The notes under the pieces are model-generated. The model made no database searches. It saw nothing but the letters and a program-made list of their open reading frames with translations, and was not told where the DNA came from. From the NCBI GenBank assembly GCA_949751835.1, contig CATKHK010000096.1:62001-126000 (forward strand): 64,000 nucleotides of DNA. Reading direction: 5' to 3'. Shown in pieces: positions 24,201 to 64,000 of this stretch. Both the position numbers and the translations under genes were made by a program. Positions within the stretch are counted from its first letter, which is position 1; every line of letters starts with the position of its first letter. Source of the stretch: Blepharisma japonicum. Its lineage: Eukaryota > Ciliophora > Heterotrichea > Heterotrichida > Blepharismidae.

Positions 24201-24823
24201 AGTATCTCAATATCAGCATTCAAAGCTATTTCAGCTAATAAACTATGCCTTATTTCTTTCATAATTTCTATATCCTCATCTAAAATATCTAAAAACCAAT
24301 TTCTTGTATCGACTAGCAATTCAATTTTGCCGGTAAGAGCATTGCTCCATACCAAATTTTGAAATTCGTTATAAAATGTTTTTCATAATTCTTTTAAGCT
24401 AACACCAAATTTATTTTTTATCAAAAAATCATTTTTTCCAGCATATTTCATCATGATTTTTTGGATTTCTATAATATTTGGATATCTGAAACAGGAATGC
24501 CATATTGTTCGACCACTGTCATCAGTAGTGTTAGTAATATTTTTATTTCATTGCAAAACACTGTCTAAAACATCATAAAGTCCTTTTTCTGCCAAAAAAT
24601 GGGCTGGTGTTTTTCCGGAAAGATCTTGCTGAGTAATCAGAGCGGAATCGAATTTAGATAATAAATAAGGCAATAAGGAAGCCCTATTTGCAATAACTAG
24701 ATGATGAAACAAGTTTAGTCGCAAATTGTCTTGAGATCGGAGGTCATCAGCATTCATCAAGCAAAAAGACTGAACTTCTTCATCACTTGCACTTGAGTAT
24801 AATAGATCTAAAGCTTTTTCCAT
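15275..24823 (-). CDS. Giant ankyrin-repeat protein, copy 2
   Basis: A continuous frame of 3,182 codons from the ATG at 24821-24823 to TAA at 15275-15277, again only with TGA as tryptophan. By eye well over nine in ten residues match copy 1, with the same ankyrin units near the N-terminus and around residue 1500. Against copy 1 it lacks three residues near 23653, about fifteen near 21780-21830 and four near 17833. It has one extra residue near 17573. Its C-terminus is four residues shorter and ends KNINY instead of KKLISKNLW. All internal indels keep the frame, which suggests selection on the protein. It shares a 155-bp divergent promoter with the intact transporter. The function is not recognisable beyond protein binding. 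Confidence 0.85.
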
Positions 24824-42002: not shown

Positions 42003-42699
42003 ATTTTATTTTTCTTTTAAATGTTTATGTTATAAATTCTTTTATAATTGTTTGAGTAATTTAAAGTGATTTCTTTATGGTAGTTTATTAAATTTTTTAA
42101 TCACAATTATAATTTCATAAATTTTCGAACATAATTCCAGGTTTATAAAAATATTAATTTTATAAAGACAATAAATAAATCTAACTAATGCAAAGTTGAG
42201 AATTTAATTAATACTTAGTTAAAAGGCTTTCAGGTTATTGTGTATTTAAATTTATGAAACAAAATGACAAAATTCGCTCAAATTTTGATATCGTATAAAA
42301 GAATGCTATCCTTAGCAAATTCATTTAATATTTATAATAATCATCATCTTATTTTGATTAATAGAAAATAATTTATAAATTATTATCAAAAAAATATTTA
42401 TCTCAAACATATATACATTATATACTTCTTCTGACAACATTATAATAGACTTTCTACACAAGTTCTTTTTAACAAATTTTACTTTTGAGGCTTATATTTC
42501 CTTTAGATCGATTAAAATAAAAATTATTCCAAAGCAAGATTATAATTATTATCAAATTTATAGCCAATCTTGGCCTCGTTTTGATAAATATTTAAATATA
42601 ATCGCTTTTCAATATATATTCTTCTTTTAAACTCATAAAGGAGAATTTTTAAATAGTATTTTATATTCTTTCTATAATTTTTTTTAAATAGGGTTTACA
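42003..42699. promoter_or_regulatory. Upstream region of surface-protein gene 1 (also upstream of the kelch gene)
   Basis: About 700 bp of very AT-rich sequence between divergent starts. From 42026 onward it is nearly identical to 51504-52182, in front of surface-protein gene 2, including the block aaactcataaaggagaattt and the stretch just before the ATG (agggtttacaATG). Conservation of the whole interval reflects recent duplication; the promoter must lie inside it. No coding frame is evident. Confidence 0.5.
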
Positions 42700-45600
42700 A
42701 TGAAAAGCCTTATAAGCTTATTTGTCCTCATTGTAATTGCAAACTGCATAAAATTTGGAACTTATGATCCATATCTTGATCCTGGCAGAATATTCTGAGC
42801 AAAAGACACTTGATTTAACAACCCTATAGAACTCAGCCAAACTAATGCTGGCTCGTCAGTCACCTTGACAATTCATTTTAGACCTTTTACATCAGTGATG
42901 TCAGGGACTGTCCAAATCATTTTCCCGAGATCCTTTTCAACAGAAACAAATAAAATGGCTACTCTTCCTAATACTTATAATTTACAGGCTGGGAAAGACA
43001 TTACTGCTAACTATAATACAATCCTTCCTAACTCTGAAGGAATTTATGGGCCAATTGGAATTATCACTAGGCACAGCGCTGGTGGGCAAATTGTAGACGC
43101 GAATTTCAATTTTGGGTTCATTGCTGTAACCAGCTCAGCTCTTAATGCTAATCTTTATGTCTCTAGAACGAGTAGCAGCACTGTAACAAAAATAAATACC
43201 GATAACGCCCTTAAATTCTCATTCCAATTGACTTTTAGCCTTTGGGCTCATGATATCATTGAGATTGTTCCAGATTCCTATTGGACTCCAAAATCTGTTA
43301 TTGCCTGTAAATCAGTGGGAAGCCCAAACCTTCTTTTTAACTCAAATAATGCTAATTCTTTGCCTTGTGCACTCGGAGTCAAAAGCTCACAAGCTGGAGT
43401 TGCAGTTGGGGCTGATAACTCCAATAATTACTGAGATAGTGTTTATATTTATGGGATTGCTAAAGAGGTTTATGTGTCATCTGGATCTAGTTCAAATTCT
43501 TATACCGTCGAGCTTGATGTTAACACTTTTGTGTCGCCTAAATTTGTTACAAGCTCAAGCAGCTGGACTATTAATATTTGAAGATGGGGAACCAATAACT
43601 TGCTTGCTAAATATACCACGACTACAGGACCTGGATCAACAGCAGGGTCAGCTACTTTTATCAGCTGGAAAAATCAGAATAATCCGTCTATTAATGTGAT
43701 GCAGAATCAAGCTATATTTACTAAAGTTACAGTTGGAACTGATAGTCCACTTCCTGCTGGGAGTTCTTTGACTGTTACTTTTAGTGGTGTTGATATATAT
43801 AATACAGTTTGATGGTCAGATTTAGATGGCTCCACTGAAAAAGCTGATAAACTATGTCATGTTACTCCAGCTATTGATGGAGCAAGCTGCAAAGCAACCT
43901 CTGAGACCACTGCAACTATAGCATTTGAAAAAGAGCAGGCTAAAGGATCAGTATCGTTCGTGGTATTAAGCAAATTTATTGGACCAGCTTCATATGTTTC
44001 TAAAATTACTACTTATTATAGCTCGCCTCAAAATGTTGTAGATGAAAGTGAAGCCAATCCTGGTGAATTCATGGTTATCCCAAGTTCGTCACCTAATTAT
44101 AAGATTCCTGATGTGGCATTGCATGCTCTTCCTGCTTCAACTACGACATATCCTCAACTTGATTCTGGAAGGGGTTATACTCCATATCCCCTGTATAACT
44201 CCAATACTCTGAATCAAGGAGGAGTAAAAGGTCAATATATCTTTTTACGTGCTACTCCAGGAAGCACAAATTCATGGGGTGGAGCTTCTGGTGTTGCAGC
44301 TAGTTTAACATTTTACTTCAACTGAGCATCTTCATTAGGGTTTGATACTTTTAACTCTGTCTATATAAGCAGCGGGAGTACACTTAGTGACTATATTAAT
44401 TCTGCTACAAGTTTAGGATCATCAACAGCAGAAGATCGCACCTTAGCAGCAGCAAGACCTGCAACTTCTCCTAAATTAACTAGCAGCAATCAAATTTCTG
44501 TATCCTTCGACGCCTCTTCAAGTTCTCCATCTGTTGCGTATGGAAGCTACTATATTTTAAGATTTTCTGAGTCAAGCTTGCCATTCATATCATCCAACAA
44601 AGCAACCTTTTATGAAATCTGGGCAATAGCAACCTATACAGTATCAACAGTCTCTACAATTGAAATCGGCAGCTCAGTTATATCAGTGCTTCCTCAGAAA
44701 ACTTCTTCAAAGCTTTATACATTGTTAGTTTGCAATGACCAGCTTGATGGAATTCCTATGGTGAACTACTTTGAGCCAATAAACACAGACTTTGACTTTA
44801 CTGGCCAGTTATACGCAATTGATATTGAAATTGATTCAGGATATGACTATATTAAAGGATTTATGGGTACTGGCATCATGGAATATGATAATGCAGGGAT
44901 TTTGACCATTAACAACAAATTTTTATCTTCTGCTTCTACTGCTACTGCTAGCTTTATAACTTCTGGGGCAAAACTAACTATCACACTTAAAAATTTTGGA
45001 GCTATATCTGTGAATACGCCAACAAAGGTGACTACTTATCTACCAAGTGCAATTGCTACGCTAGGGATAACGCATTTTTCAGTATGAACAAATTTTTATA
45101 TCGTCAAGCCATCTGATCCTTCAGTCAAACAAATCCTTTATCAATCTTCGTATGTCTCTTGGGACATTCAAAAAACTCTTAAACCTTTTGACTCTTCTTC
45201 AACAGGAGCAAAAACCTCAGATTCCTCAGACTGGTATATTGGAGATTCAAAAGGTGTTACAATATCCAACAAGCTTAAAAGCAGTACCTCAGCAACTGCA
45301 ATACTGTCTAACTATATCATTGGGATCGGGCTATCACCAGGCTTTACTTTTTATTCAGTTCCTTCCTATTCTGTAGTAGTCAATACAGCAGCTGCTGCAA
45401 CTTCTCCTGCCTCTACGACATATTATTTAAGCTCTTCAGGTGATTATGGTGCAGGTGGGTTTATTATGGCTTATGGATCATCATGGGGCACTGCAACGCC
45501 CACATCTGATGGAATTAATTATAATCTAGCAGTTGCCAATCTTCAAAGTCCGAACCACTCTACCTCAAGTACTTGGAATGTATGGATCGCAGCTGCTACA

Positions 45601-48600
45601 CCAGGATTAGATTGTAAATATTCCAATTCTTATTCTAAGTCTATCACTATTCAAGAAAAATCTTTGAACAGCCCTAAATGCTATGCTGATACAAATACAA
45701 TTATGGGGGCTAGTGCAGACTCAGTTAATCTGTCAATAACTTTTGAGTTCTCTATTAATATTAAGGTACCTGCAGGAGGTTCCCTTGAATTTTTATTAGA
45801 CAGCAGCTGATCATGATCGTCATCAGACTACTCCTCGCCCTCAATATCAGCATCTTATTCAATTTTTGGAAATACTTTGACAGCTAGCCTATATTCTGGA
45901 CTTTCAATTGGAACATATACTATTGTGGTAAAAGGAGTTCAACCTCCGTGGAATAGGGGATCTTATTCCATTTGAACAAGTTGCTTTTATTCATTATCAA
46001 CTAAAACTAAGTCAGGCGATAATATTGAGTCAGGTAGTTCATGATCCCCAATAGAAATTACCTCTTCTGCTTCTGTAATACCTGGAAATTCTTATTTAAC
46101 AATCAATTCATATCCAAGCTCTCCATATGCAGTAGTTGATATCTTGCTAGATTTTTATTTCGATAAAAAAGTCCCTGCTGGTAGCTATATTGAAATTTCA
46201 ACTCCTAATGATCTACCCTGGTCTTATTCTGAATTATCAAGTTCCATTAAAGACTACTGCTGAGCTAACATTATATATAGCAGCTGCGCTATTACTGATA
46301 GTTCTACAATTATTATGTACTTAGCTGAATCTATAATTTCAGGAACCAAAATCAATATTTATCTGGAAAATGCAATAAAATTTGAAGACCCAAGTAAAAC
46401 AGGTGATTTTTTAATTTCTGCTTATTGGGGGCCTGATTCAATTCAAATTATAGATGGATCATCAGGTATAGGCAAAAATTCAGTCAAGTTTTTAGAATAT
46501 GATACGTACCCGATAGATTTTTATGGCTCTTATGATATTACAACTGCTGGAGAATTCTCATCTTATACTCTTTTTTTTGGCATGTGGCATTGAGTTGGAG
46601 TTGTTTATGAAGATTATTTTTACATTCAATTTCCAAGAGATTTTGACCCTTATATCGGAGATGCTAAGCAATCCAATCCTAATGATCCAAATAGCTGATT
46701 TCTTGAATGCAGCTCAAAAACGCTTGGCAATCCCATAATTTGCACTGTAGATCATTGGTTTGTCATTGTGAAAAGCTTAAAGAGCACATACACATATAAT
46801 ATATATATAGATTTAACTATTAGAGGCGTAAGAAATCCAGGCCCTTTTGAAGTTGGCTATTTTAAAGTATGGCACTATGGCCCTGCTGGCAATCTTAGAG
46901 GTTTGACTTATGGACCTCTTAAATCAAAAATCCCTACTTCGCCTGCAAACAACATGAATCTTAAGCCTATTTCTATTGCAGACAGTACCTTAGCAGCTTC
47001 AACCGATTATAATTTTGATTTCTACCTAGCAATGAATACAGCTTCCAGTTTTAGTACTGCCAATTCCTTCAACATTACGTTCCCTCAGCAGTTTGTTGGC
47101 ATATTATACACAGCTTGCAAATTAATGGCATTTGACGAAACATCAGCCACAGCGCTGACTGAAGCAACTTGGGCAAGCAATTGCACTTGTAAAGTATTAG
47201 GAAATATGATAAGCCTAAGTCCAACAAGTACAACTCCTATAGTCAAAACAACAGATAGGATTCGTATTTCACTAACTAATGTCACCAACCCCTCTTCTGG
47301 CTTGACAAGAAATACAGGCTGGGATATCACTGGCTTATCCTTCGGCCCTTCATACATGTACTGGTCTAACAAGTTTGAAATAATTGTAGTTGACTGAACC
47401 ACTAATATCATTACTGGAAGGACTTATGGAAATCTCAACTCAGGGTATGTAGGATACGGCCAGTACATTAAGACTCCTAACTCTACGGATGATACGAATA
47501 ATACGAATAATACGAATCCTACTGATCCTACTACTGACTCTGATCCTTGATGATGAGTCCGCATTTGAGGAAATTATAATTCCAAAGTCATCAAGCTTTT
47601 TCCTGGTCAACAAAGTTGAAATTATTATATCGTGCTCACCTCTGGATCATCTAATTTTGGCTTGAGATCGCAAAAATTAATCCTCACGCCAAAAGTGACC
47701 TCTATTAACCAAAATATAGTAGATGGAATAAAACTCACTTCAGTTTATCACCAATGAACTGCGTTTCAGTTAGATGAAGAAATAGCGTTCAGGATTTCAG
47801 TAGCGACTGGAACTCCCAGTGGCACGTGCTATATAGAATGAATTTTAACTGAGTATTGCCATGATGGAGTCTATTCAAACATCTATAATGCTTCTCAGGT
47901 CGTTACTGTTGAAATTGGTACTCAAACTGAAAAAATTTGAATTACTGTTGACCCTATTCCCACCATTTATGTGGGCTACACTAGTATTCCAATTGGTGTA
48001 AGGCTTGGATATGCTCCAGCATCTGATTTGACTGTTACTCCAATACTTGGTGCCACAGTTTCAGGGATTTTTATGAATCCAACCAGCCTTACATTTGGAA
48101 GAGACACCCAAATTCTTTTCTTTGAGCTAAAAGTTCTTAACAGCTATGACCTAACCCAGAAGCCTGTACTTAGTTTCTATCTGGCTGGAACTGATGTAAA
48201 CTCTTTCATTATACCTTTTTCTCAATCCCTAACTGTCGGATCTATTCCGTCTATATCATCGACAAATTTAGTTCTTGTACCTAGCGGAATTTCAGGTACT
48301 TCAATTACAATGAATGTAAAATATAGCCAAAACGCTATCATCTATTGAGGACTTACATGCGAAGGCGCTCCTATGCTTAACTTTACTAATCTCCAAAAAC
48401 AAACCCAAAATCTTGTATCTCCAAACTCTGACACGCTAAGTCTTTTAGATCAGCTTGCAGCTGATCGTCAAGATACTGAGACCCATATTGACTATGCTAA
48501 AGATACTGATATTGCTTCTTTCTTCAGAAGAATTCACAGGAACCACTGCCAAAACCTATGGGCTGATGCATCCATCAATAGAGCTAATTATGGCTCAATA

Positions 48601-49479
48601 TCAATTACTTTAAATTGGCTTATGGATAGCACTTCATATCAGTTTTACGCATACGCTGACAATAAAATTGGCACCCCATCATTTGCATCTATTGCATTTA
48701 AAACATCAGCTACCAATTTCGCTTATTCTACATCAGTTACTTTTCCAGGAGCACTTCCAACAAGCACAGATGATATCGTTAGAAAATGCTTGGCGAAGAA
48801 TATGGGAGTTAACCCTGATTGATTGATTTCTACAGGCCGAACAGAGCCATCATCATCATCTTCAGGATCTTTAAGACTACTAGAGAACTCAGAAACGATT
48901 TCATATTCAAGGTTCAATTACATAGTCGTTTATGATAGAAGCAATCTAAAATATTCACCACTCTTTATTCTCAATAATCTTGACCAAAATGGAGCAACTA
49001 GTGATCTGACTGCATTGATTGGTGTTCCCCCAGCAGCATATGGAGTTCCTACTCCTCTATCACCTGGCACAATACCGAGTTGGACATATGCCCCATCTTT
49101 AAGTTCAAAATCTTCATCAAATGCCATATTTAGTGCAGCCTCATCACAATCAGGCCTTGCATGCGTATCTTGTCGCGATTACGCTTCAGACAATATTACT
49201 TATGCTTGGCAAGTTGTTGATAGGCTAGATTGTGAGTCTAATATTGCATATGGAGTATGCGTCAATACTACAGCAGCAACAACTTTTCAACTAATAGTTA
49301 ATGGCCTTACCCAAGATACAACGTACTTTTGTTACTTCACAGTTTGCAATAGCCACCCAATTAATCCCAATTGTACTGACTACACTGCAACTGCTCCTAT
49401 GGCAAGCATAGATATTAAGACTGATGATGAAGCAGTTTTGATTGGTCTTTTATCTGCTTTCTTCTTAATCTTTAGCTAA
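42700..49479 (+). CDS. Giant secreted/surface protein 1
   Basis: 2,259 codons from the ATG at 42700 to TAA, a single frame with several dozen TGA tryptophans. MKSLISLFVLIVIANC is a signal peptide. The last residues (DDEAVLIGLLSAFFLIFS) are a short hydrophobic tail with no basic end, as for a GPI anchor. Between them lie about 2,200 Ser/Thr/Asn/Tyr-rich, beta-type residues with few cysteines. An Asn/Thr/Asp-rich linker is at about 1595-1616, followed by three consecutive TGA codons. A conserved WWSDLDG motif starts at residue 371. No catalytic domain is recognised. A surface coat or cell-contact role is inferred from size, secretion signals and tandem family members. The paralogues start at 52183 and 62378. 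Confidence 0.88.
47487..47530. repeat. Short tandem repeat (aatacg units) in surface gene 1
   Basis: Repeated gatacg/aatacg hexamers encode DDTNNTNNTNPTD in the linker of surface protein 1. The paralogue at 52183 has only a shorter, non-repetitive version here, so the repeat expanded in this copy or shrank in the other. Confidence 0.7.
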
Positions 49480-50434
49480 AAAATTAATTCAAACTTTTCC
49501 CAGTATGATTATTAATATATAGTAAAAATAAAAATAAAGATTTTGCAATTGATATTGTGAATAACTAATAATTATACTCTTTTAACCTAAAGGATTGCTT
49601 GCTTTAAAATTCAACGTTTTGTTTTGGAGATAATAAAGTTTTTACTATTTTAATAGTTCAAGTTTTATGTGCAAATATATTTCATATAAATAAATTAAAT
49701 ATTTCCTATGTGGACATATGACCCTTATTGGTGTCAGAAAAACAGCAAATCTTCATAGAAAAGTTCCAAAAAATGGTAATCATTCTAGAGAAGTCAATTT
49801 ATAAAAGCTATAATAAGATATACAATGATTAGTTAGTTTTTAAAGATCGACTGAAACTGGGAAAAGCTCAAGGCAGGAACAATTCTTGAGAGAATATATG
49901 AGTTAAATGAAGAAAAGATCTATCGTGAGCAAGCATAAATGTGAAATGTGTAAGAGTGGTAAATCACTAATACATCAGAAATTTATTTCCTGGATAAAAA
50001 ATCGAAGGAATAATAATTTTGAATATATAGGTCAGTTATTTATTAAGTCTTCTTAGAAAACTATAATTTTAGCATCAATTCGTAAAAATTACTCGGTATT
50101 GTCATTATTGCTAATAGGATGTGTTTCTAAAAATGCAGCATCTGCTGTATATAAACTTTGATTTTATTTTTGGAATTTTTGAGTTAAAATTATTGCACTA
50201 TCAGCACTAAACTCCAAGATGATTTGAATAGTAGAATCTATAATTAGGGTACTCCTGAATAAAGTGAAGCATACTTTTTAGTACTAATTTTGCGTCATTA
50301 AAATAATAAAACAATTTAAAAATAAAATAAGTACAACTAAAAAGAGTACAAGCAATATTGAAAAAGGGTTCTAAAACCGTCATATATCAACCTTAGAATA
50401 GAACATAGTTAAAAAAATGCTCATAAAAATAAAT
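49480..50434. other. 3' region of surface gene 1 with decayed small-ORF sequence
   Basis: 955 bp that align with 58888-59695 but with several indels. It holds the polyadenylation region, a block of about 85 bp at 49711-49795 absent from the other unit, and a damaged version of the 49-codon frame found whole at 59173-59322 (its first 48 bases are missing here). It also holds the small inverted-repeat insertion at 50249-50349. No intact gene is seen. Confidence 0.45.
50249..50349. mobile_element. Possible 101-bp non-coding insertion with short inverted ends
   Basis: The segment begins GTACTC and ends GAGTAC. A second inverted pair lies inside it (tactttttagtac near the left, gtacaactaaaaagagtac at the right end). 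The corresponding place in the other unit (about 59605-59620) lacks it. Too short to code for anything; it could be a MITE-like element, an excision-type internal sequence or an ordinary indel with chance symmetry. No clear target-site duplication is visible. Confidence 0.3.
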
Positions 50435-50461
50435 AATAATTAGCAAAAAACTTAGCATTTA

Positions 50462-50976
50462 TTGACGAAAAAACTTACGACGTCTGATGATGAATCTTGC
50501 AACGAAAAATGCACATGTGACGCTCAGCTCGGAAACAATAAATGCGACTCAGAATGTGACACTTGCGGATGTAATTATGACCATGGTAACTGTTATCATT
50601 TTTCTTTTAAAGATGCAATGATCATTGGGTTTGCAATAGGTGGAGCAATACTTTTAGTAGTTTGCTGCATTCTTATATTCAAATTTTACAAATTATTTTC
50701 CAAAAGAAATTCTAGAATAATATCAAAGCAATATTTGCCTTGGAATTGAGCTTAAAGGAAAATTCCATTTGCACAATCTGCTTCGATTCCTTTGATGATA
50801 ATCAGCCTATTCGAAAAACAGTTTGTGGTCATATATTTCATGTAACATCTTTTGATTCATGAATCAATCATTCAAAAGAGTTAAGATGTTCAAATTGTAA
50901 TAAAAAATTTAAATTTTATGCTGTAGGGCATAAGATCCCAAGAGTACGTGAAATTCAGAATATCTCAGCCATTTAA
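50462..50976 (+). pseudogene. 3' fragment of an LNR-like/transmembrane/RING-H2 protein
   Basis: No start codon is present; an in-frame TAG lies just before it. The first part encodes a cysteine-rich module like an LNR (Lin-12/Notch) repeat (NNKCDSECDTCGCNYDHGNC). A single membrane helix follows (IIGFAIGGAILLVVCCILIF), then a basic stop-transfer. One frame over, starting near 50764, comes a RING-H2 finger: CTICFDSF, then CGHIFH, then WINHS and CSNC, ending at TAA 50974. One frameshift near 50742-50760 separates the two parts. The layout is that of a membrane E3 ubiquitin ligase with an outside cysteine module and an inside RING. The missing 5' part and the frameshift make it a relic. Confidence 0.65.
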
Positions 50977-51130
50977 ATCTTCCAAAGTGAAGACTGTTTA
51001 TAAATACTTTAATATTGAAGAAATATTTGCAAGCGGAACTGAAAGCAGCAAAAATTGGAGGCGAATAGCAGATTCAACAATAAATTAGGATAGGGTTAAT
51101 TAAATTTTCTTCTTCTTTATATTCACACCA

Positions 51131-51497
51131 GACACCCAAACTCTTTACTTTGAACTCACTGTAGCTTCAACATATTCCACATTCCAGACACCTAAACTGA
51201 CTTTTACTGTAAGTGGAACCGATAATAATATTTTTATTGCCCCTGCTTCTCAAACTCTTTCAATTTCTTCTGATATTCCTACATCATCAGCCACTTTGAC
51301 TTTATCCCCTAGCACTCTTACTGGTACTTCAGTAATGATTACAGCCAAATTCAGCCAAGACGCGGCTATATATTGGAGACTTACCTGCTATGAGACTCCA
51401 GCACTTACTTATTCTAAGCTTAAGTCACAAACCCAAAGTCCCATATCTCTTAACTCTAATTTGGCAAGCCCTGATCAAAAGCTCGCTTGCTTACTTA
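51131..51497 (+). pseudogene. Fragment of a surface-protein family gene
   Basis: An open stretch without a start, homologous to the C-terminal third of surface protein 1 (the part at about 48100-48470). It reads DTQTLYFELTV, FTVSGTDNNIFIAP, TLTGTSVMITAKFSQDAAIY and WRLTCYETPALTY. The match ends near 51497, right where the second tandem unit begins at 51504. It is clearly more diverged than genes 1 and 2 are from each other, so it comes from another, older family member. It is cut at both ends. Confidence 0.8.
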
Positions 51498-52182
51498 GAT
51501 ATATATGTTATAAATTCTTTTATAATTGTTTAGTAATTTAAAATGTGATTTCTTTATGGTGGTTTATTAAATTTTTTATCAAAATTATAATTTCATAAAT
51601 TTTTGAGCATAATTCTAGGTTTATAAAAATATTAATTTTATAAAGACAATAAATAAATCTAACAAATGGAAAGTTGAGAATTTAATTAATATGTAGTTAA
51701 AAGTCTTTTAGGTTAATGTGTATTTAAATTTATGAAACAAAATACCAAAAAATTCGCTCAAATTTTGATATCATATAAAAGAATGCTATCCTTCGCGAAT
51801 AAATTTAATATTCATAATAATCATCATTCAGCTGTGACTTACTTTGATTATTAATTATTATCAAAAAAATATTTATCTCAAGCATATATACATTATATAC
51901 TTCTTCTGTACACATTATAGTAGACTTTCTAGACAAGTGCTTTTTAACAAATTTTACTTTTGAGGCTTAATTTCTTATATTTTCTTTATATCGATTAAAA
52001 TAAAAATTATTCCAAAGCACGATTATAATTATTAGCAAATTTATAGCTAATCTTGGCCTATTTTTGATAAATATTTAAATATAATAGCTTTTCAGTATAT
52101 ATTCTTCTTTTAAACTCATAAAGGAGAATTTTTTAATAGTTTTGCATATTCCTTCTATAATTTTTTCTAAATAGGGTTTACA

Positions 52183-55100
52183 ATGAAAAGCCTTATAAGC
52201 TTATTTGCCCTTATTGTAATTGCAAATTGCATAAAATTTGGAACTTATGATCCATATCTTGATCCTGGCAGGATATTCTGAGCAAAAGACACTTGATTTA
52301 ACAACCCTATAGAACTCAGCCAAACTAATGCTGGCTCGTCAGTCACCTTGAAAATTCATTTCAGACCATTTACATCAGTGACTTCAGGGACTGTCCAAAT
52401 CATTTTCCCGAGATCCTTTTCAACAGAACCAAATAAAATGGCTACTCTTCCTAATACTTATAATTTGCAGGCTGGGAAAGACATTACTGCTGACTATTAT
52501 ACAATCCTTCCTAACTCTGAAGGAATTTATGGGCCAATTGGAATTATCACTAGGCACAGCGCTGGTGGGCAAATTGTAGACGCGAATTTCAATTTTGGTT
52601 TCATTGCTGTAACCAGCTTAGCGCTTAATGCTAATCTTAATGTCACTAGAACGAGTGTAAGCACTGTAACAAAAATAAATACCGATAACGCCCTTAAATT
52701 CTCATTCCAATTGACTTTTAGCCTTTGGGCTCATGATATCATTGAGATTATTCCAGATTCCAATTGGACTCCAAAATCTGGTATTGCCTGTAAATCAGTG
52801 GGAAACCCAAACCTTCTTTTTAACTCAAATAATGCTAACTCTTTGCCTTGTGCACTTGGAGTCAAGAGCTCACAAGCTGGAGTTGCAGTTGGGGCTGATT
52901 ACTACAATAATTACCGAGATAGTGTTTATATTTATGGGATTGCTAAAGAGGTTTATGTATCATCTGGATCTAGTTCAAATTATTATACCGTTGAGCTTGA
53001 TGTTAACACTTTTGTGTCGCCTAAATTTGCTACAAACTCAAGCAGCTGGACTATCAATATTTGAAGATGGGGAACCAATAACTTGCTTGCTAAATATACC
53101 ACGACTACAGGGCCTGGATCAACACCAGGGTTAGCTACTTTTATCAGCTGGAAAAATCAGAATAATCCGTCTCTTAATGTGACGGTGGATCAAACTATAT
53201 TTACTAAAGTTACAGTTGGCACTGATAGTCCACTTCCTGCTTGGAGTTCTTTGACTGTTACTTTTAGTGGTGTTGATATAGGAAGTACAGTTTGATGGTC
53301 AGATTTAGATGGCTCCACTGAAAAAGCTGATAGACTATGTCATGTTACTCCAGCAATTTATGGGGCAAGCTGCGAAGTATACTCTTCGACGATGGTAACT
53401 ATAAGATTTGAAAAAGAGCAGGCTAAAGGATCAGTATCGTTCGTGGTATTAAGCAAATTTTTTTCAGGATATGCAGCAGTTACCAGTATTACTACTTATT
53501 ATGGCTGAACTAGCAATGCTGTAGATAAAAGTGTAAGTGTGCCTGGTATATTCTCGCCCATCTTACGTTCGCCATCTAATTATAACATTCCTGATGTGGC
53601 CTTGCATGCTCTTCCTGCTTTAACTACGACATATCCTCAACTTTATATTTGAAGAGGTTATACTCCATATCCCCTGCATGACTCCAATACTCTGAATCAA
53701 GGAGGAGTAAAAGGTCAAGATATCTTTATACGTGTTACTCCAGGCAGCACAAATTCATGGGGTGGAGCTTCTGGTGTTGCAGCTAGTTTAACATTTTACT
53801 TCAACTGAGCATCTTCATTAGAGGTTGATACTCTTAACTCCGTCTATATAAGCGGCTGGCCTGCACTTAGTGAATATATTAATTCTGCTGAAAGTTTAGG
53901 TTCATGAACAGCAGGGGATCGCGCCTTAGCAGCAACAAGAGCTGCAACTTCTCTTACATTAGCTAGCCCCAATCAAATTTCTGTATCCTTCGCCGCCATT
54001 TCAAATACTCCATCTGTTGCATATGGAAGCTACTATATTTTAAGATTTTCTGAGTCAAGCTTACCATTCATATCCTCCAACAAAGCAACCTTTTATGAAA
54101 TCTGGGCAATAGCAACCTATAAAGTATCAACAGTATCTACAATTGAAACAGGCAGCTCAGTTATATCAGTGCTTCCTCAGAAAACTTCTTCAAAGCTCTA
54201 TACATTGTTAGTTTGCAATGACCAGCTTGATGGAATTCCTATCGTGAACTACTTTGAGCCAATAAACACAGACTTTGACTTTACTGGCCAGTCATATGCA
54301 ATTGATATTGAAATTGATTCAGGATATGACTATACGAAAGGATTTATGGGTACTGGTATCACGAAATATGATAATGCAGGGATTTTGACCATTAATAACG
54401 AATTTTTATCTTCTGCTTCTAATGCTACTGCTAGCTTTACAACTTCTGGAACAAACCTAACTATTACACTTAAAAATCTTGGAACTATATCTGTGAATAC
54501 ACCAACAAATGTTACTACTTATCTACCAAGTGCGGTTGCTACGCTAGGGATAACGCATTTTTCAGTATGAACATATTTTTATGTCGTCAAGCCATCTGAT
54601 CCTTCAGTCAAACAAATCCTTTATCAATCTTCGTATATCTCTTGGGACATTCAAACAGCTCTTAAACCTTTTGACTCTTCTTCAGAAGGAGCAAAAGCCG
54701 GATATTCCTCAGTCTGGTATATTGGAGATTCAAAAGGTGTTACAATATCCAACAAGCTTAATAGCGGTACTTCAGCAACTGCAATACTATCTAACTATAT
54801 CATTGGGATCGGGTTATCACCAGGCTTTACTTTTTATTCAGTTCCTTCCTATTCTGTAGTAGTCAATACAGCAGCTGCTGCAACTTCTCCTACCTCTACG
54901 ACATATTATTTAAGCTCTTCAGGTGATTATGGTGCAGGTGGGTTTATTATGGCTTATGGATCATCATGGGGCACCGCAACGCCCACATATGATGGAATTA
55001 ATTATAATCTAGCAGTTACCAGTCTTCACAGTCCAAACCACTCTACCTCAAGTACTTGGAATGTATGGATCGCAGCAGCTTCACCAGGATTAGATTGTGA

Positions 55101-58100
55101 ATATTCCAATTCTTATTCTAATTCTATCAAGATTCAAGAAAAATCTTTGAACAGCTCTAAATGCTATGCTGATACAAATACAATTATGGGGGCTAGTGCA
55201 GACTCGGTTAATCTGTCAATAACTTTTGAGTTCTCTATTAATATTAATGTACCTGAAGGAGGTTTCCTTGAATTTTTATTAGACAAAAACTGATCATGAC
55301 CGTCATCAGGCTTCTCGCCCTCAATATCAGCATCTTATTCAATTTTTGAAAATACTTTGACAGCTATCCTATATTCTGGCCTTTCAATTGGAACATATAC
55401 TATTGTAGTAAAAGGAGTCCAACCTCCATATAATAGGGAATCTTTTTCCATTTGAACAGGATGCTTTTATTCATTATCAACTAAAACCAAGTCAGGTGAT
55501 AAAATTGAGTCAGGTAGTTCAGGATCCTTAATAGAAATTACCTCTTCTGCTTCTATAATACCTGGAAATTCTTATTTAACAATTAATTCATATCCAAGCT
55601 CCCCACATGCAATAGTTGATATCTTGCTAGATTTTTATTTCGATAAAAATGTCACTGCTGGCAGCTATATTGAAATTTCAACTCCTAATGATCTACCCTG
55701 GTCTTATCCTGAATTATCAAGTTCCATTAAAGACTACTGCTGAGCTAACATTATATATAGCAGCTGCGCTATTACTGATAGTTCTACAATCATAATTTAC
55801 TTAGCTGAATCTATAATTTCAAGAACCAAAATCAATATTTATCTGGAGAATGCAATGAAATTTAAAGACCCAAGAAAAACAGGTGATTTTTTAATTTCTG
55901 CTTATTGGGGGCCTGATTCAATTCAAATTATAGATGGTTCATCAGGTATAGGCAAAAATTCAGTCAAGTTTTTAGATTATGATACGAATTCGATAGACTT
56001 TTATGGCTCTTATGATATTACAACTGCTGGAGAACTTTCATCTTATACTCTTTTTTTCGGCATTAGTTACTGAATTGGAGTTGATTTTGGAGATTATTTT
56101 TACATTCAATTTCCAAGAGATTTTGACCCTTATATCGGAGATGCTAAACAATCCAATCATGATGATCCAAATAGCTGATTTCTTGAATGCAGCTCAAAAA
56201 CGCTGGGAAATCCCATAACTTGCACTGTAGATCATTGGTTTGTCATTGTGCAAAGTTTATACTCTATAGGTACACATAATTTATACATAGATTTAACTAT
56301 TAGAGGCGTAAGAAATCCAGGCCCCTTTGAAGTTGGCTATTTTAAAATATGGCACTATGGCAATGCTGATAATCTTAAAGGTTTTACTTATGGACCTCTT
56401 AAATCAGAAATCCCTACTTCGCCTGCAAACAATATGAATCTTAAGCCTATTTCTATTGCAAACAGTAATTTAGCCGCTTCAACTGATTATAATTTTGATT
56501 TCTACCTACCAATGAATACAACTGCCAGTTTTAGTCCTGCCAATTCCTTCAACATTACGTTCCCTCAGCAGTTTGATGGCATATTATACACAGCTTGCAA
56601 ACTAATGGCATTTGATGAAACATCAGCTACAGCTCTGACTGAAGCAACTTGGGCAAGCACTTGCACTTGTAAAGTAGTAGGAAATATGATAAGCCTAAGT
56701 CCAACAGATACCACTCCTATAGTCAAAACAACAGACAGGATTCGTATTTCACTGACTAACGTTATCAACCTTTATTCTGGCTTGGCAAGAAATACAGGCT
56801 GGGATATCACTGGCTTATCATTCGGCCCTTCATACATATACTGGTCTAACAAGTTTGAAATAATTGTAGTTGACTGAACCACTAATATAGTTACTGGAAG
56901 GACTTATGGAAATCTCAACTCAGGATATGTAGGATACGGCCAGTACATTAAGAATCCTAACTCTACGGATGATGCGAATCCTATTATTAACTATGATCCT
57001 TGATCAGTCCATATTTGAGGAACTTTTGATTTCCAAGCCATCGAGCTTTTTCCTGGTCAACAAAGTAGAGATATTTATATCATGCTCACCTCTGGATCAT
57101 CTAATTTTGGCTTGAGATCGCAAAAATTAATCCTCACGCCAAAAGTGAACTCTAATAACCAAAATATAATCGATGGAATAAAACTCACTTCAGTTTATCA
57201 CCAATGAACTGCGTTTCAATTAGATGAAGAAATAGTGTTCAGAATTTCAGTAGCAACTGGAACTCCCAGCGGCATGTGCTATATAGAATGAAATTTAACT
57301 GAATATTGCCATGATGGAGTCTATTCAAACATCTATAATGCTTCTCATGTCGTTATTGTTAAAATTGGTACTCAAACTGAAAAAATTTCAATTACTGTTG
57401 ACACTGTTCCCACCATTTATGTGGGCTACACTAGTATTCCAATTGCTGTAAAGCTTGATAATGCTCCAGCATCTGATTTGACTGTTACTCCAATACTTGA
57501 TGACACAGTTTCAGGAATTTTTGTGAATCCAACCAGCCTTACATTTGGAAGAGACACCCAAATTCTTTACTTTGAGCTAAAAGTTCTTAACAGCTATGAC
57601 CTAACCCAGAAGCCTGTACTTAGTTTCTATCTGGCTGGAACTGATGTAAACTCTTTCATTATACCTTTTTCTCAATCCCTATCTATCGAATCTTTACCGT
57701 CTATATCATCGACAAGTTTAGTTCTTATACCTAGCAGAATTACAGGTACTTCAATTACAATGAATGTAAAATATAGCCAAAACGCTGTCATCTATTGAGG
57801 ACTTACATGCGAAGGCGTTCCTATGCTTAACTTTACTAAGCTCCAAAAACAAACCCAAAATCTTGTATCTCCAAACTCTGACACGCTAAGTCTTTTAAAT
57901 CAACTTGCAGCTGATCGTCAAGATACTGAGACCCATATTGACTATGCTAAAGATACTGATATTACTTCTTTCTTCAGAAGAATTCACAGGAATCACTGCC
58001 AAAGCTTATGGACTGATGCAGTTATCAATAGAGATAAGAGTGGCAAAACAACAATTTATTTAGATTGGCTTATGGATAGCACTTCATATCAGTTTTACGC

Positions 58101-58887
58101 ATACGCTGACAATAAAATTGGCACCCCATCATTTGCATCTTATGCATTTAAAACTTCAGCAATCAGTTTGGCTTATTCTACATCAGTTACTTTTCCAGGA
58201 GTATCTTCAGCAAGCAAAATTGATAGCGTTAGAAAATGCTTGGCGAAGAATATGGGAGTTAACCCTGATTGATTGATTTCTAAAGTCCCAATAATACTGT
58301 CACCTTCAGAATCTTTAATGTTCAATTACATAGTCGTTTATGATAGAAGCAAACTCAAATATTCACCACTCTTTATTCTCAATAATCTTGACCAAAATGG
58401 AGCAACTAGTGATCTGACTGCATTGATTGGTGTTGCCCCAGCAGCATATGGAGTTCCGACTCCTCTATCACCTGGCACACCACCAATTTGGGTAAATGCC
58501 CCATCTTTAAGTTCAAAATCTTCATCAATTGCCATATTTAGTGCAGTCTCATCACAATTAGGACTTGCATGTGTATCTTGTCGCGACTACACTTCAGACA
58601 AGATTACTTATGCCTGGCAAGTTGTTGATAGTCTAGATTGTGAGTCTAACATTGCATATGGAGTATGCGTCAATACTACATCAGAGACAACTTTTCAACT
58701 AATAGTTGATGGTCTTACCCAAGATACAAGGTACTTTTGTTACTTCACAGCTTGCAATAGCCACCCAATTAATCCCAATTGTACTGACTACACTGCAACT
58801 GCTCCTATGGCAAGCATAGATATTAAGACTGATGATGAAGCAGTTTTGATTGGTCTTTTATCTGCTTTCTTCTTAATCTTTAGCTAA
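52183..58887 (+). CDS. Giant secreted/surface protein 2
   Basis: 2,234 codons from the ATG at 52183 to TAA, one frame with TGA as tryptophan. The signal peptide (MKSLISLFALIVIANC) and hydrophobic tail are the same as in protein 1. The two proteins align along their whole length. Differences cluster at about residues 385-610, where many codons changed yet the frame stayed open, and in the shorter Asn/Asp linker. It also lacks the Ser-rich insert that protein 1 has near residue 2047. The uneven divergence suggests diversifying change or gene conversion in some regions. The function is unknown; a surface or cell-contact protein is inferred from the secretion signals. Confidence 0.88.
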
Positions 58888-59695
58888 AAAATTAATTCAA
58901 ACTTTTCCCAGTATGATTATTAATATATAGTAAAAATAAAAATAAAAATTTTGCAATTGATATTGTGAATAACTAATAATTATACTCTTTTAACCTAAAT
59001 GATTGCTTGCTTTAAAATTCAACGTTTTGTTTTGGAGATAATAAAGTTTTTACTATTTTAATAGTTCAAGTTTTATGTGCAAACATATTTCATATAAATA
59101 AATTAAATATATTTCTTATATTTATAAAAGCTATAATAAGATATAAAATGATTAGTTAGATCAAGAGTTATAATGCCAAATAAGGAGATGAAGCTAGATG
59201 TGAGAGCTTTTAAAGATCGACTGGAACTGGAAAAAAGCAAGGCAGAAATAATTCTTGAGGGAATATATGAGCAAATGAAGAAAAGATCTATCGTGAGCAA
59301 GTATAAATGCGAAATGTGTTAGAGTGGTAAATCATTAAACCATCAGAAATTTATTTTCTGGATAAAAAGTCGAAGGAATAATAATTTTGAATATATAGTC
59401 AGTTATTTATTAAGTCTTCTTAGAAACTTATAATTTTAGCATCAATTCGTAAAAATTACTCGGTATTGTCATTATTGCTAATAGGAAGTGTTTCTAAAAA
59501 TGCGGCATCTGCTGTATATAATCTTTGATCTTATTTTTGGAATTTTTAAGTTAAAATTATTGCGCTATCAGCACTAAACTCCAAGATAATTTGAACAGTA
59601 GAATCTACAAACTATATTGAAAAAAGGGTTCTAAAACCGTCATATATCAACCTGAGAATAGAGCATAGTTAAAAAAAATGCTCATAAAAATAAAT
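58888..59695. other. 3' region of surface gene 2
   Basis: 808 bp matching the 3' region of gene 1. The first 220 bp after the stop are nearly identical in both units. Apart from the short frame at 59173-59322, nothing coding is supported. Confidence 0.4.
59173..59322 (+). CDS. Short hypothetical frame, possibly a gene remnant
   Basis: 49 codons from ATG to TAG, giving a charged, helix-forming peptide (MPNKEMKLDVRAFKDRLELE) that ends SKYKCEMC. Beyond the TAG the same frame looks vaguely protein-like but has further stops. The matching place in the other unit has lost the start. I do not recognise it; it may be the 5' remnant of a larger gene rather than a working one. Confidence 0.25.
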   Translation: MPNKEMKLDVRAFKDRLELEKSKAEIILEGIYEQMKKRSIVSKYKCEMC

Positions 59696-59931
59696 GACTC
59701 GTTCTTCCTCGCCTGGAACTTCCAGTGATATGAATTTTATATTTTAGAGTATTATAGAAAACTAATAATATAAATCCTTAATAGAACCATCAAATAATTA
59801 AATACTAAAAATGAGCACCGTTAGCAGGAATTGTGATTAGCATAAAGGTTCCCAACAATCAATAGACTCAGAAAACCGCCAATTTAATTGAAAAGAGCAT
59901 CACATTGAGCTCCTTCCGACTGAGCGTCTAA

Positions 59932-60243
59932 AGCTCAGCAAGAAATGATGCTTTGTTCATCTCAAACTCCCACTTTTTCCTTTCCTCTAATTTCAACTCA
60001 TTCCGTCCTCATCTTCAATATCTCCTTATAAATGAATTTTGCATCGAAATGCTAAAAAATAGCTGAATGCTGACTAAGAATTGGGCTATTAGTCAACGTC
60101 AATTGCTATCAGTAGAAACTATGATGAATTTGCTGAAAATTGTATATGATGGAAAGCTTGCTATTTCAACTCCAGCTGATTGGCTAGTTCTTAATTTGGC
60201 AAATCTTCTGTTTTGCGAATCTTCCAAAATAATGGCTGGCTAA
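59932..60243 (+). pseudogene. Unrecognised open fragment with in-frame TGA
   Basis: 103 open codons between two TAA stops. The only ATGs that could begin it are well inside, for example 60049 (MLKNSWMLTKNWAISQRQLL). It uses TGA once as tryptophan and ends NLLFCESSKIMAG. A second frame just upstream (RLKLSKKWCFVHLKLP) also looks protein-like, as if one gene had been shifted. No family is recognised, so I list it as a probable broken gene. Confidence 0.25.
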
Positions 60244-61545
60244 TTTTTAAATATAATGGCTCATTCCTAATTAGATACAACTATTATGTTTCCATCATAA
60301 CTAAAATTATATTATTAAGAAATTGTTTCATCTGATTGATAGAATTAAAAAAACCCTCAAGCAGTTTTTACATATAAAAAAATAAAGGAAAATTGTTTCT
60401 ATCTAGATTTTATTTAAGATAGGCCATGTGCCATTAGTATAACTTTAAACAGAAGGATATTAACTTGAATTTAACAAAATATAAAAATAATTTATAGAAC
60501 ATCAGTAAGAAGATTAAAATATTGAAATTTACTTTATTAATAAAAATGAAATATAATTATCAATTAAAAGTTTATGGAAATTCTTACTAGCAAAATTTTT
60601 GTTTTCTTTGACATCTTTTGTTATTTTACCTCATATACCAGAGTAAGTTATCACCATATCTCTGAATTCAATAAAAGAATGTGAGAAAAATCTAATATAT
60701 TTTTACTGGGGAGCGTAAAAGCTTGAAAAATTTTAAAGAGTATTGCATTTTTATGCTTCCAGATCAATCAGATTTTAGAATGGAAAATACATAATTCTGC
60801 ACTAATCAAGAGCCTTTACTGATAAATATTCAGAAAATTATTTGAAATATCACTCAAGCATTTTTATTTTAAAAAAGCGATTTATATATAGCAAAGTTTG
60901 TATCGGACGTCTGTTTAAGATTTAGCATGAGACAATAATTGGATTTTATACTAGAAGAGAGTTTATGGCTAAATTATTTTGAAATCATATGCTGAAAAAT
61001 TAGATGCTAACTGACAAGACCATAAGATTGCTTATAATTGAGTTCGTCCGTCCAGCCAATTTTCTCAAAGAAAATTAATAAATTGATATTCTGAAAAGCT
61101 TCCTTTTGCTAACTTCAAGATAAGGGAATGCGTACATTTTTTGAAATCTGAAAAAAAAAGCTGATTGAAATTACATCAAAAATAACTTCATCTATAAGGG
61201 TCTTACACTTGACTGCATACTTTACGCTTATGCATTCTTATTGGAATATTTCAAGCTTTGAATGGGACCATAAATCATTTCAGATTAAATAGTTAAAAAT
61301 ATCAGCTATTTTTTTCAAAAGTATTAGCAAATATTTCTTTTAATAAAAACAAGATAGATGCTTTGCGTCATCTTATAATCTATTCTGGGCAGGCATCTTC
61401 TTTTTTTTCTTTGCTTTTCATGAAACTTTTATCCTTTAGTCGATCGATGATATTTTTGATAAATAAATTAAGATTTATTTTTTCTTTTACTCTTGTTCTT
61501 CTAAAATTTTTTTTGCCGCATCCTCATTGAGTCACTTTCCTAATT

Positions 61546-61854
61546 TTAGTTTTTAACTGAATCACAATTCGCACAATACTCATCTGAAATCGGCCAATTA
61601 AAAACTCCACCAGTTCATGTTGTTTTAAATTCGCGACAAAAATCAAGCATCCAATTCATCTTCGAAAACTGCAACTTCAAATAGTTCGCCATGAAGAACT
61701 CCAAATGAATCTTCATGTCTACTACACAATCTCCAATACAAGATCCAGCCATTAATGCACCATCTATTCGATCCTCCGAAATAGGCCACAGTAGCAGGAC
61801 GCATCTCCACAGTTCCCACAGAGTCTCCATCACCTTCAGCACTTTCAATTTCAC
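61546..61854 (-). other. Ambiguous overlapping open frames, minus strand
   Basis: Two minus-strand frames are open over the same DNA. One reads PISEDRIDGALMAGSCIGDC, then WTGGVFNWPISDEYCANCDS, and stops at 61546. The other reads PKRKKEPSEIESAEGDGDSV, then GELFEVAVFEDELDA. Either has natural-looking composition, so the coding frame cannot be chosen. A shifted, decayed gene would explain both. No family is recognised. Confidence 0.2.
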
Positions 61855-61874
61855 TTGGTTCTTTCTTTCTTTTT

Positions 61875-61889
61875 GGCGCGAAAAGCGCC
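61875..61889. other. GC-rich perfect hairpin
   Basis: GGCGC, a five-base loop gaaaa, then GCGCC: a perfect 5-bp all-GC stem in otherwise AT-rich sequence. The purpose is unknown; it may be an end of an old element or a structured RNA remnant. Confidence 0.5.
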
Positions 61890-62233
61890 TTCTAGTAAAA
61901 ATTAAAAGTTTAATTTTTGTATTAATATACGTTAAGAAATATTTATTTCAAAAATTTTACCGCTCTAGTTTAGAAGATGAAGGAAGAAAAACGTCAAAGA
62001 TTATTAAAGGAAACTATTCAACACATAAAAACAGTTAAAACTAGCTTAATAAACTCGCCAGAAAAAATATACCAAAATTAGGCCTTTGGCATCGCTAAAT
62101 ATTTTATCAAATATAATCCAAAGTTATTTTGCTAGACAAGTGCTTTAACAATCACTTAAATATAAATAAATATTAGGGCAAATGCAGTAAATGAAGAAAA
62201 TTTCAATAAAATAAAGATTCCTGTAAGATCAAT

Positions 62234-62372
62234 ATCAGAGGTGAGACAAACAGAAGCCACCTGCGCTAGCGCTCGGATCTGCAGGAGCCATCAGATATGC
62301 CTTGAGGTGTTCTTCTGTGCATGCTTCCTCCAAGATGATGAAAATTGTCCCATACTCTCTACATAATTCCTA
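62234..62372 (-). pseudogene. Coding-like fragment with a Cys/His C-terminal motif
   Basis: On the minus strand about 45 open codons read LCREYGTIFIILEEAC, then MAPADPSASAGGFCLSHL. A TAG precedes them and a TGA follows. The DNA is more GC-rich than its surroundings and codon-like. The LCRE...GGFCLSHL layout recalls bacterial proteins that begin CPLCxxE and carry GFCLPH, but the match is short. It overlaps no other gene and ends just before the third surface gene. Confidence 0.3.
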
Positions 62373-62377
62373 ATAAT

Positions 62378-64000
62378 ATGGAACAAATAAGGTACACTAC
62401 GAAGAATCTTATAAGCTTTATCATCCTTTTTCAGCTTGTTACTTGTCTAAAATTTGGATCATACGATTCCTTTTTCGATCCAGGGAGAATTGTTTGGCCT
62501 AAGGAGAAATGATACAACAATCCAATTGAACTTAGTCAAACTAACGCTGGATCAAGCTCAGTTACTATTACTTTCAACTTTAGACCTTCCACTACTTTAA
62601 ATTCAGCATTAGTCCAGATTATTTTCCCATCCTCTTTCTCAGCTGAATCTAATAAAATAGTTGCAGCTAGTTATACAGAAACTACTCTTAATCTTCAAGC
62701 TAATACAGATTCCTCTGTTTATTATGTTACTTCAAGCCTCCCAACATCCGTAGGTGCTTATGGACCATTTGGAATTCTCACTAGACATAGCGCAACCGGG
62801 CAAATTGTAGACGTAAACTACATTTTTGGTTGTATCGCAACTACAGCCCTAGTGACTTCTTCTGCTGGACTTACTGTAACCAGAGCAGGAACTGTTACTA
62901 CGATTAACACTGACAATGTCCTGAAATTCTCTTTTACTCTTTCTCAAAGCCTTTGGGCTCATGATATCATTGAAATTGTTCCAGACTCTGCTTGGACTCC
63001 AAAGAGCAGAATTTCATGCAAGTCAACTTCTACTCAAAATTTGCTTATTGGGCCTGATTCTACTTACACTGCATTTTTACCTTGCGCTCTTGCAACAAAA
63101 AGCAGCTCTACTAATGGAATTTCAAGCTCAACTACTGCCAATTTAGCCAACAGTGTATACATTTATGGAATTTCTCAAGATGTTTATTTAGCTTCTGGGG
63201 CATCCACTACATATACAGCTCAACTTGAGATTTCATCATTTACAGCACCTGGATATGCTACTAGCACAAGCTTTTGGACAATTAATATTTGAAGATTTGG
63301 CACAAATAGCTTAATAGCACAATATACAACATCTAGTGGTGTAGGAACTACTTCAGGAGCACCTAGTGCTTCCAGTTGGGTTAGATTGAATACCATTTTA
63401 GCATCAGATATAATGCAAGGAATGACATTATTTACCAAAGTTACAGTTACTACAGCTAATCCTTTAGTTGCAGGGAGTACTTTATCCGTAATTTTTAGTA
63501 GCCAAGTTAATATTAGAGATACTATTTGATGGTCAGATATAGACACTACTACAAATGCTGCTTCTGGGTTATGTCATGTTTCTCCATACATTGAAGGAGC
63601 ATATTGCTCAGTTCTTGATGCTACAAGTGTAATGATAACATTCAAAAATGCTCAAGCTAAGGGATCAGTATCATTTGTGATTTTAAGCTATTTTTCTGGG
63701 TCTAATCCACAAATTACTGGTGTTAAAACAAATTGGGGTAGCTCATCAGGTGCAGTAGTAGATCAATCCTCAAGTCTTGCATTTGCATTTACAGTTAAAA
63801 GTTCATCTTCAACTAACTATTATCTGTTTTCTGACTTGGGTCTTCATGCTCTTAACCAAGGATCTACAACATATCCACAATTATTATCTTCAAATGCTCC
63901 TGCTCCATATATCTTAACTGGATTTAATGGTCAAAATCAAGGAGGAGTGCTAGGCTCAGACCTCTTCTTCCGTGTTAAATCAGCCTCAGGAAATACATGG
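62378..64000 (+). CDS. Giant secreted/surface protein 3 (5' part, runs off the right end)
   Basis: 541 codons from the ATG at 62378 (an in-frame TAA lies just upstream) to the window edge, with TGA as tryptophan. The signal segment is LISFIILFQLVTCLKFG, preceded by about ten polar residues that proteins 1 and 2 lack. It aligns along its length with them. Shared blocks are SQTNAGSS, the block around YGPFGILTRHSA, LWAHDIIEIVPDSAWTPKS, IWRFGTNSL, WWSDID (again TGA TGG) and AKGSVSFVILS. It is clearly diverged, so this is an older paralogue outside the recent duplication. Its upstream region does not resemble those of genes 1 and 2. Confidence 0.88.

Follow-up and report, generated by a model that had tools for sequence, protein, structure and literature searches.

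What is known of ciliate surface antigens comes mainly from work on Paramecium, Tetrahymena and parasites of fish, which represent one part of the ciliate tree. The serotype antigens (SAg) of Paramecium are described as a multigene family of high-molecular-weight, glycosylphosphatidylinositol (GPI)-anchored proteins with recent species-specific duplications, in which the terminal areas are better conserved than the central one (PMC9788069), and the Ser antigens of Tetrahymena are described as GPI-linked proteins whose genes form tandem arrays, each of one subtype, on several scaffolds (PMC4136848). For Blepharisma, a pair-formation (adhesion) factor is described that would act at the cilia and the cell surface (PMC9866912), and the account of Blepharisma stoltei reports a 41-Mb somatic genome in which UGA encodes tryptophan (Trp) and which carries CCCTAACA telomeres (PMC9942806). 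In the current work, a stretch of 64,000 nucleotides (nt) of Blepharisma japonicum DNA (the “window”, being G000:C96:62001-126000, where C96 is contig CATKHK010000096.1) was analysed with respect to a tandem group of giant genes, here named A, B and C. Positions are given in window coordinates unless a contig number (C-number) is indicated.

These genes belong to a genome-wide family which, on balance, we consider likely to form a giant GPI-anchored surface coat acting in the manner of immobilization antigens (i-antigens), with a conserved upstream element that would mark the strongly expressed set, with A, B and C being weakly expressed, and with A and B evolving fast. New in this work are the family-specific upstream element, its link to the avoidance of TGA codons, and the rate contrast of the A/B pair.

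A tandem gene group and its genome-wide family

When TGA is read as Trp, open frames in the window reach 3,735 codons; table 6 and the standard code were both rejected, the family genes being broken under either. Genes A and B were confirmed to be intact, and gene C represents a full-length copy which runs past the window to G000:C96:131145 (coordinates of all features are compiled in Table 1). The proteins encoded by B and C are 86% and 48% identical to that of A, respectively, and 492 aligned nucleotides differ between A and B. The earlier note on this DNA, made from the sequence alone, had described two near-identical genes, a third diverged gene and a fragment in the same orientation; the arrangement was recovered, with A, B, C and the relic all having one orientation, but “near-identical” proved too strong a term for the observed differences. 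The A/B tandem unit takes in the flanks on both sides, with the 3’ flanks (49480-50243 and 58888-59610) being 86% identical. In gene C, an ACG is located at 62399 where the family start ATG aligns, and the nearest in-frame upstream ATG, at 62378, retains a signal-like start.

The genome searched for further members comprised 45.2 Mb in 224 contigs. A full-length search produced 22 match rows, corresponding to 19 full-length genes, a half-length copy and a further gene, C21:449020, that occupies two rows, and a second search performed with the member L024, also of 22 rows, added C37:107550, C49:29550, C37:40997 and C116:73861. Both searches scored the best candidates only, and the combined number of at least 24 full-length paralogues, located at several loci, is hence a lower bound. 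When the last 500 residues of A were used as query, 45 of 50 candidates matched; 28 of these matches span 92% or more of the query, are distributed over 15 contigs (six on C37, five on C21, three on C96, two each on C144 and C116, and one each on ten others) and, in 27 of the 28 cases, are free of TAA and TAG. An alignment of 19 rows, which excluded L013 (half-length), L029/L030 (a split match) and the four genes added by the L024 search, was used to construct a tree in which paralogues cluster largely per contig, except that genes of C37 and C144 intermingle and C162 is placed with C96 genes; this grouping by contig points to local duplication. Family members range from approximately 2,160 to 2,280 residues, and downstream of C the family is represented by half-length copies encompassing residues 1 to approximately 1150. 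Among viral contigs and prokaryote genomes, 104 and 123 pattern matches to the family, respectively, were obtained, none of which was confirmed, and among the papers listed from the open-licence PMC literature none describes the family, as judged by title or start of abstract.

Predicted protein architecture

All 19 aligned members begin with a hydrophobic signal-like sequence and have a hydrophobic C-terminus with no cytosolic tail behind it; both termini were judged from hydropathy and by inspection, and no control set was used. The start is identical to MKSLISFIALIGLASC or near it in many paralogues, and the hydrophobic tail is often preceded by a Ser/Gly-rich stretch. In addition, the gene for the GPI transamidase subunit Gaa1 was found in the genome (E 3.7e-13, with one TAA within the match and with prokaryote controls being silent). 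The family proteins are thus probably secreted and GPI-anchored, and the earlier prediction of signal peptides and GPI tails remains a probable one, with the tail of L024 being atypical.

Cysteine (Cys) accounts for 1.1-1.6% of the residues of the 19 members, and Ser/Thr for 23-33%. Profile self-comparison revealed related internal segments at positions corresponding to A residues ~30-200, 310-450, 1000-1120, 1147-1250, 1260-1390 and 1425-1540, with hhalign probabilities of up to 92 that are lower for segment 30-200. Near the C-terminus, the region corresponding to A residues 2068-2240 resembles Pfam fn3 with a best E-value of 6e-4 and with matches at E≤1 in eight of 19 members, A itself being without a match, and when full-length members were compared to fn3 one of the 19 matched (E 0.016). 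No Pfam family was matched by A or B at E≤1, and no PDB chain by A at E≤10; the profile of 19 members reached E 0.075 or worse against PDB, and the 19 single members matched six Pfam families at E≤0.1, one member each (best E 0.0096). Matches below the cut-off were obtained for the first 577 residues of C (BslA, E 0.039) and for the relic (Lep_receptor_Ig, E 0.12). Matches to BslA and to antibody light chains were rejected as being weak and were taken as generic beta-sandwich noise. The weak profile matches are nonetheless those on which a fold can be proposed, according to which the repeats may represent beta-sandwiches. The earlier statement that more than 2,200 residues are without a recognised fold is to be qualified by the weak FN3 similarity and the internal repeats. 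A match to a known structural or secreted-granule family, which the note had named as counter-evidence, was found in none of the Pfam, PDB, viral and prokaryote collections.

An upstream element confined to the family

A comparison of the 100 nt preceding the ATG of the 19 genes revealed a motif consisting of CGCAWAAANAAAAWTCG followed by WWAAAATTTT. The 17-nt form of this element has 12 exact matches in the genome (reversed control: 0), all of which are located 81-84 nt before family starts: nine precede aligned family genes, and the remaining three lie 81-82 nt before further family starts, being one frameshifted relic and two starts seen over approximately 350 residues. The 27-nt form, when up to two mismatches are permitted, has 12 matches, all at family genes, and at this stringency the element is therefore confined to the family. 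At three mismatches seven more matches appear, of which one is at a family gene and six (unfetched) are at no known family gene, with the control giving three.

The 250 nt preceding the ATG of A, B and C contain no sequence closer to the element than nine mismatches in each case, which is no better than shuffles; a shorter upstream stretch of C gave 11 mismatches, and three half-length copies gave 8-10. A, B and C are thus not typical members, as they are without the element that marks TGG-biased members elsewhere. A promoter role may be proposed for this element.

Tryptophan codon choice

The ten genes that bear the element with at most four mismatches contain 12 TGA among 340 Trp codons, compared to 108 among 343 in eight genes without the element, and L016, the element of which has diverged, contains none among 33. 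The association between element and TGA across these 19 genes has a two-sided P of 0.004. Across 24 genes (11 with the element and 13 without, L016 included), the median TGA number is 1 versus 8 (one-sided P 0.0006), where the counts of the five added genes were obtained from the matched stretches of the L024 search. In the tree, the sisters L014/L017, L011/A+B and L019/L018 all show the link in the same direction.

For comparison, the ratio of TGA to Trp codons in non-family genes of the window is 13/52 for a TRRAP-like gene, 20/41 and 20/42 for two ankyrin-repeat genes, 5/12 for a WD40 gene, 3/10 for a Kelch gene, 2/7 for a sugar transporter and 0/1 for a Rad23-like gene. Six canonical tubulin genes (loci L042-L047) contain no TGA among 22 Trp codons, and the eight best-scoring tubulins are without TGA in the searched domain, as opposed to 19 of 25 other tubulins which carry 1-3. 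Avoidance of TGA may therefore mark highly expressed genes. Considering that most element-bearing members, like canonical tubulins, avoid TGA, they can be read as highly expressed, and A, B and C would probably be expressed at a low level.

Evolutionary rates and mosaic divergence

The ratio of nonsynonymous to synonymous divergence (dN/dS) between A and B is 0.81 at a dS of 0.09. The two genes align end to end with four gaps and with both frames open; this alignment was made on proteins, so that every gap necessarily spans whole codons, and compensating frameshifts may be present. No stop separates A from B, whereas 14.3 TAA/TAG are expected from 492 random substitutions in A (P ~5e-7), and the frames are therefore open beyond chance. 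Nonsynonymous changes cluster, with 54.6 falling within 100 codons versus a permuted mean of 28 (0 of 2000 permutations as high), whereas synonymous changes do not. Within the hot spot at A residues 376-625, residues 451-600 additionally have the lowest conservation in the family, and residues 1951-2050 show a nonsynonymous to synonymous ratio (pN/pS) of 2.40 (P 0.048); the P values of both regions are uncorrected, the regions having been picked after a scan. Of nine pairs, A/B and L025/L028 alone exceed circular shifts for the 376-625 cluster (P<0.02), and the seven others are without a clear sign. An origin of the A/B hot spot by gene conversion is not supported, as synonymous changes are unclustered and the break test gave P 0.60.

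Synonymous divergence is mosaic in seven of the nine pairs (P≤0.01, uncorrected), five of which had 0 of 300 permutations as extreme; A/B and L018/L019 are without a synonymous break, and the mosaic pair L011/L012 combines one gene with the element and one (C) without. The breakpoints differ between pairs, which suggests segmental gene conversion among paralogues, with regional mutation bias as an alternative. The A/B ratio, its hot spot and the mosaic divergence agree with the earlier description of the proteins as diversifying.

Other features of the locus and its surroundings

Table 1 Coordinates of the family genes, their parts and associated features
Feature	Position	Strand	Description
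Gene A	42700..49479	+	2,259 aa; single uninterrupted open frame 42688-49479, ATG 42700, 25 TGA as Trp
Signal-peptide-like start of A, MKSLISLFVLIVIANC	42700..42747	+	By hydropathy only
Nonsynonymous hot spot A vs B, A residues 376-625	43825..44574	+	pN/pS 1.67, Fisher P 0.018
FN3-like domain near C-terminus, A residues 2068-2240	48901..49419	+	Pfam fn3 E≤1 in 8/19 members
C-terminal hydrophobic tail of A, KTDDEAVLIGLLSAFFLIFS	49408..49476	+	GPI-signal-like
LNR-like and hydrophobic segment, then RING-like in another frame	50456..50975	+	Between A and B; outside the family
Relic of family C-terminus	51104..51541	+	51131-51487 corresponds to A residues 1802-1920, 46% identity
5’ flank of B	51495..52182	+	89% identical to 42017-42699 upstream of A; without the family upstream element
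Gene B	52183..58887	+	2,234 aa; open frame 52171-58887, ATG 52183, 22 TGA
Gene C (5’ part)	62378..64000	+	Diverged paralogue; open frame 62270 to window end
Inverted piece	C96:133599-134940		
Half-length copy	C96:138179-141661		Open, 1,161 codons, without GPI-like tail
Copy split by inversion	C96:141976-142885 and 143311-145890		
Half-length copy	C96:150494-153995		Frame change

The LNR-like segment between A and B matches Pfam Notch below the cut-off (E 0.0088), and the RING-like part was recognised by inspection only. Downstream of C (G000:C96:131000-155535), four half-length or shorter N-terminal copies (L013, L031-L033) have a common 3’ end point. Amid the half-length copies are two related open frames on the minus strand, C96:132007-133329 and 135816-137186 (441 and 457 codons), which share 81% nucleotide identity over 1,370 nt and are not matched from gene A. 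The ankyrin-repeat gene is present in two tandem copies of 3,182-3,207 codons, 1098-10721 and 15275-24823, on the minus strand; both are located within the first 24 kb of the window, which are AT-rich (26-31% GC), and TGA makes up about half of their Trp codons. Elsewhere in the genome, in ten of 124 kinesin matches a single TAG is the only in-frame stop and TGA is absent, for which 15-nt introns being read through might be an explanation. The triple CCCTAACA repeat was found 77 times in forward and 91 times in reverse orientation (reversed control: 0 and 0); the matches listed have low forward-strand coordinates or, in the case of C4, are located at the very end of the contig, and the fetched ends of C96 and C162 contain no such repeat.

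Interpretation and rival explanations

According to the interpretation that we favour, the N-terminal signal would export each protein, and a GPI anchor, following the FN3-like domain, would hold it to the outer membrane with the beta-sandwich-like repeats projecting as a rod. Together the proteins would form or decorate a cell coat, as is the case for the immobilization antigens of Paramecium and Tetrahymena. The strongly expressed set would consist of those members that carry the conserved element 81-84 nt upstream of the ATG, and A, B and C, in which the element was lost or never present, would be weakly expressed. A and B would evolve fast, above all within residues 376-625, and yet have their frames held open, and gene conversion would swap segments between paralogues. 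An extension, which we consider rather doubtful, is a system resembling antigenic variation outside the Cys-rich i-antigens, in which the element-marked genes are competent for expression, and in which element-less genes (A, B and C) and half-length copies serve as a diversifying reserve that feeds conversion.

Several observations weigh against the coat interpretation. Both the expression level and the surface location are predictions from sequence. The tail of A, with DDE before the hydrophobic stretch, and that of L024 deviate from textbook GPI signals, and in some members internal 19-residue stretches reach a mean hydropathy of up to 1.80, where an internal membrane segment is possible. 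AlphaFold, when run on window-only alignments of three rows, returned two unusable models with mean predicted local distance difference test (pLDDT) values of 41 and 30. The cut-off for the element was chosen after a gap between four and seven mismatches had been seen, and the codon rule has exceptions in L016 (diverged element, 0 TGA), L020 (no element, 4), C21:449020 (no element, 2) and C37:40997 (three mismatches, 7). Related genes are not independent. Furthermore, the codon evidence consists of Trp codons only, the GC content at third positions (GC3) failing to separate the element sets cleanly, and the RibD-like gene of the window (0 TGA among 6 Trp codons) illustrates that element-less genes can also be TGA-poor. 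Finally, the dN/dS of 0.19-0.37 in the 21 next closest pairs, to which A/B is compared, was in many cases obtained at a dS close to or exceeding 1.

The window copies may constitute a reserve, a stage-specific set or decaying duplicates. Decay is a serious rival explanation, one that would not conflict with the family acting as a coat and that we regard as quite possible though short of probable: A, B and C may be duplicates which lost their promoter and drift towards pseudogenes, so that their fast evolution would reflect relaxed constraint without antigenic meaning. Their missing element and a TGA use like that of ordinary genes conform to such decay, as do the half-length, inverted and frameshifted copies that follow C, the relic between A and B, and the ACG replacing the ancestral ATG of C. 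Moreover, the element-less branch is the longer one in three of three sister pairs (L017 versus L014, the A+B stem versus L011, and L018 versus L019), and of 34 Trp columns shared with L011, 11 have TGG there and TGA in A, with 11 likewise in B. Against this stand the absence of any stop between A and B where 14.3 are expected, and the clustering of nonsynonymous but not of synonymous changes, described above.

Other rivals concern the role of the family as a whole. Instead of an antigen-like coat, the proteins could make up a structural matrix that is secreted as mucus, cyst wall or pellicle glue, in keeping with their giant size, their repeats and their richness in Ser/Thr, and Blepharisma does form cysts; this is nevertheless unlikely, considering that the hydrophobic C-terminus of all aligned members points to membrane anchoring and that, at the thresholds given, A and B match no Pfam family and A matches no PDB chain. 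It appears more improbable still that the family represents the adhesion machinery of conjugation, by which gamone-activated cells stick at cilia and surface, perhaps in a species-specific manner. The combination of internal repeats, weak FN3 similarity and a probable GPI anchor is that of an adhesion protein, but a family of at least 24 genes spread over several independent arrays would seem more than a mating factor needs, and the Trp-codon bias of many members suggests a steady high expression. The earlier note had linked such arrays to self-recognition, mating or coat antigens: the first two roles are proposed by analogy only, and a coat-antigen role is the better guess.

If the coat interpretation is correct, a heterotrich possesses a giant coat family of a different kind, which would suggest that free-living cells, with no immune system to evade, evolved large variable coats on more than one occasion. 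The 17-nt element, found at this family alone in the genome, should then predict which members are on, a link that can be tested against the Blepharisma RNA sequencing (RNA-seq) data reported in the account of the B. stoltei genome, which cover gamone-treated cells and conjugation at 0-38 h (PMC9942806). The choice between TGA and TGG as a mark of expression, where TGA encodes Trp, constitutes a second testable point.

Comparison with known systems

The Ser antigens of Tetrahymena have as their defining trait repetitive Cys blocks of 6, 8 or 10 Cys each, and the search rule described for them is 6 Cys within 120 residues (PMC4136848). In contrast, members of the present family contain approximately 25-35 Cys in more than 2,100 residues: the densest 120 residues reach 6-7 Cys in ten of 19 members, locally only, and Cys blocks along the whole protein are ruled out by the Cys content of the 19 members, which also sets the family apart from Paramecium SAg. 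The Paramecium_SA domain is absent from A and B and is not among the six Pfam families matched by any of the 19 members at E≤0.1; a genome-wide search with PF01508 was silent, as were its controls, which is no proof of absence elsewhere in the genome. As the Cys blocks are missing, the family is not classed among the immobilization antigens.

The C-terminal domains bear a weak similarity to fibronectin type III and Ig-like adhesion proteins (Dscam, titin domains), from which they differ in PDB matches of E 0.047 or worse, in the limited occurrence of fn3 matches across members, and in a long insert between strand-like parts, as seen by inspection. With the Blepharisma pair-formation factor, the family would share its site at the cell surface, a comparison made by description, as no molecular identity is given in the part of the account considered (PMC9866912). 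As in Paramecium SAg, the ends of the family proteins are more conserved (commonest residue in 0.57-0.68 of rows) than the least conserved middle (0.38-0.48).

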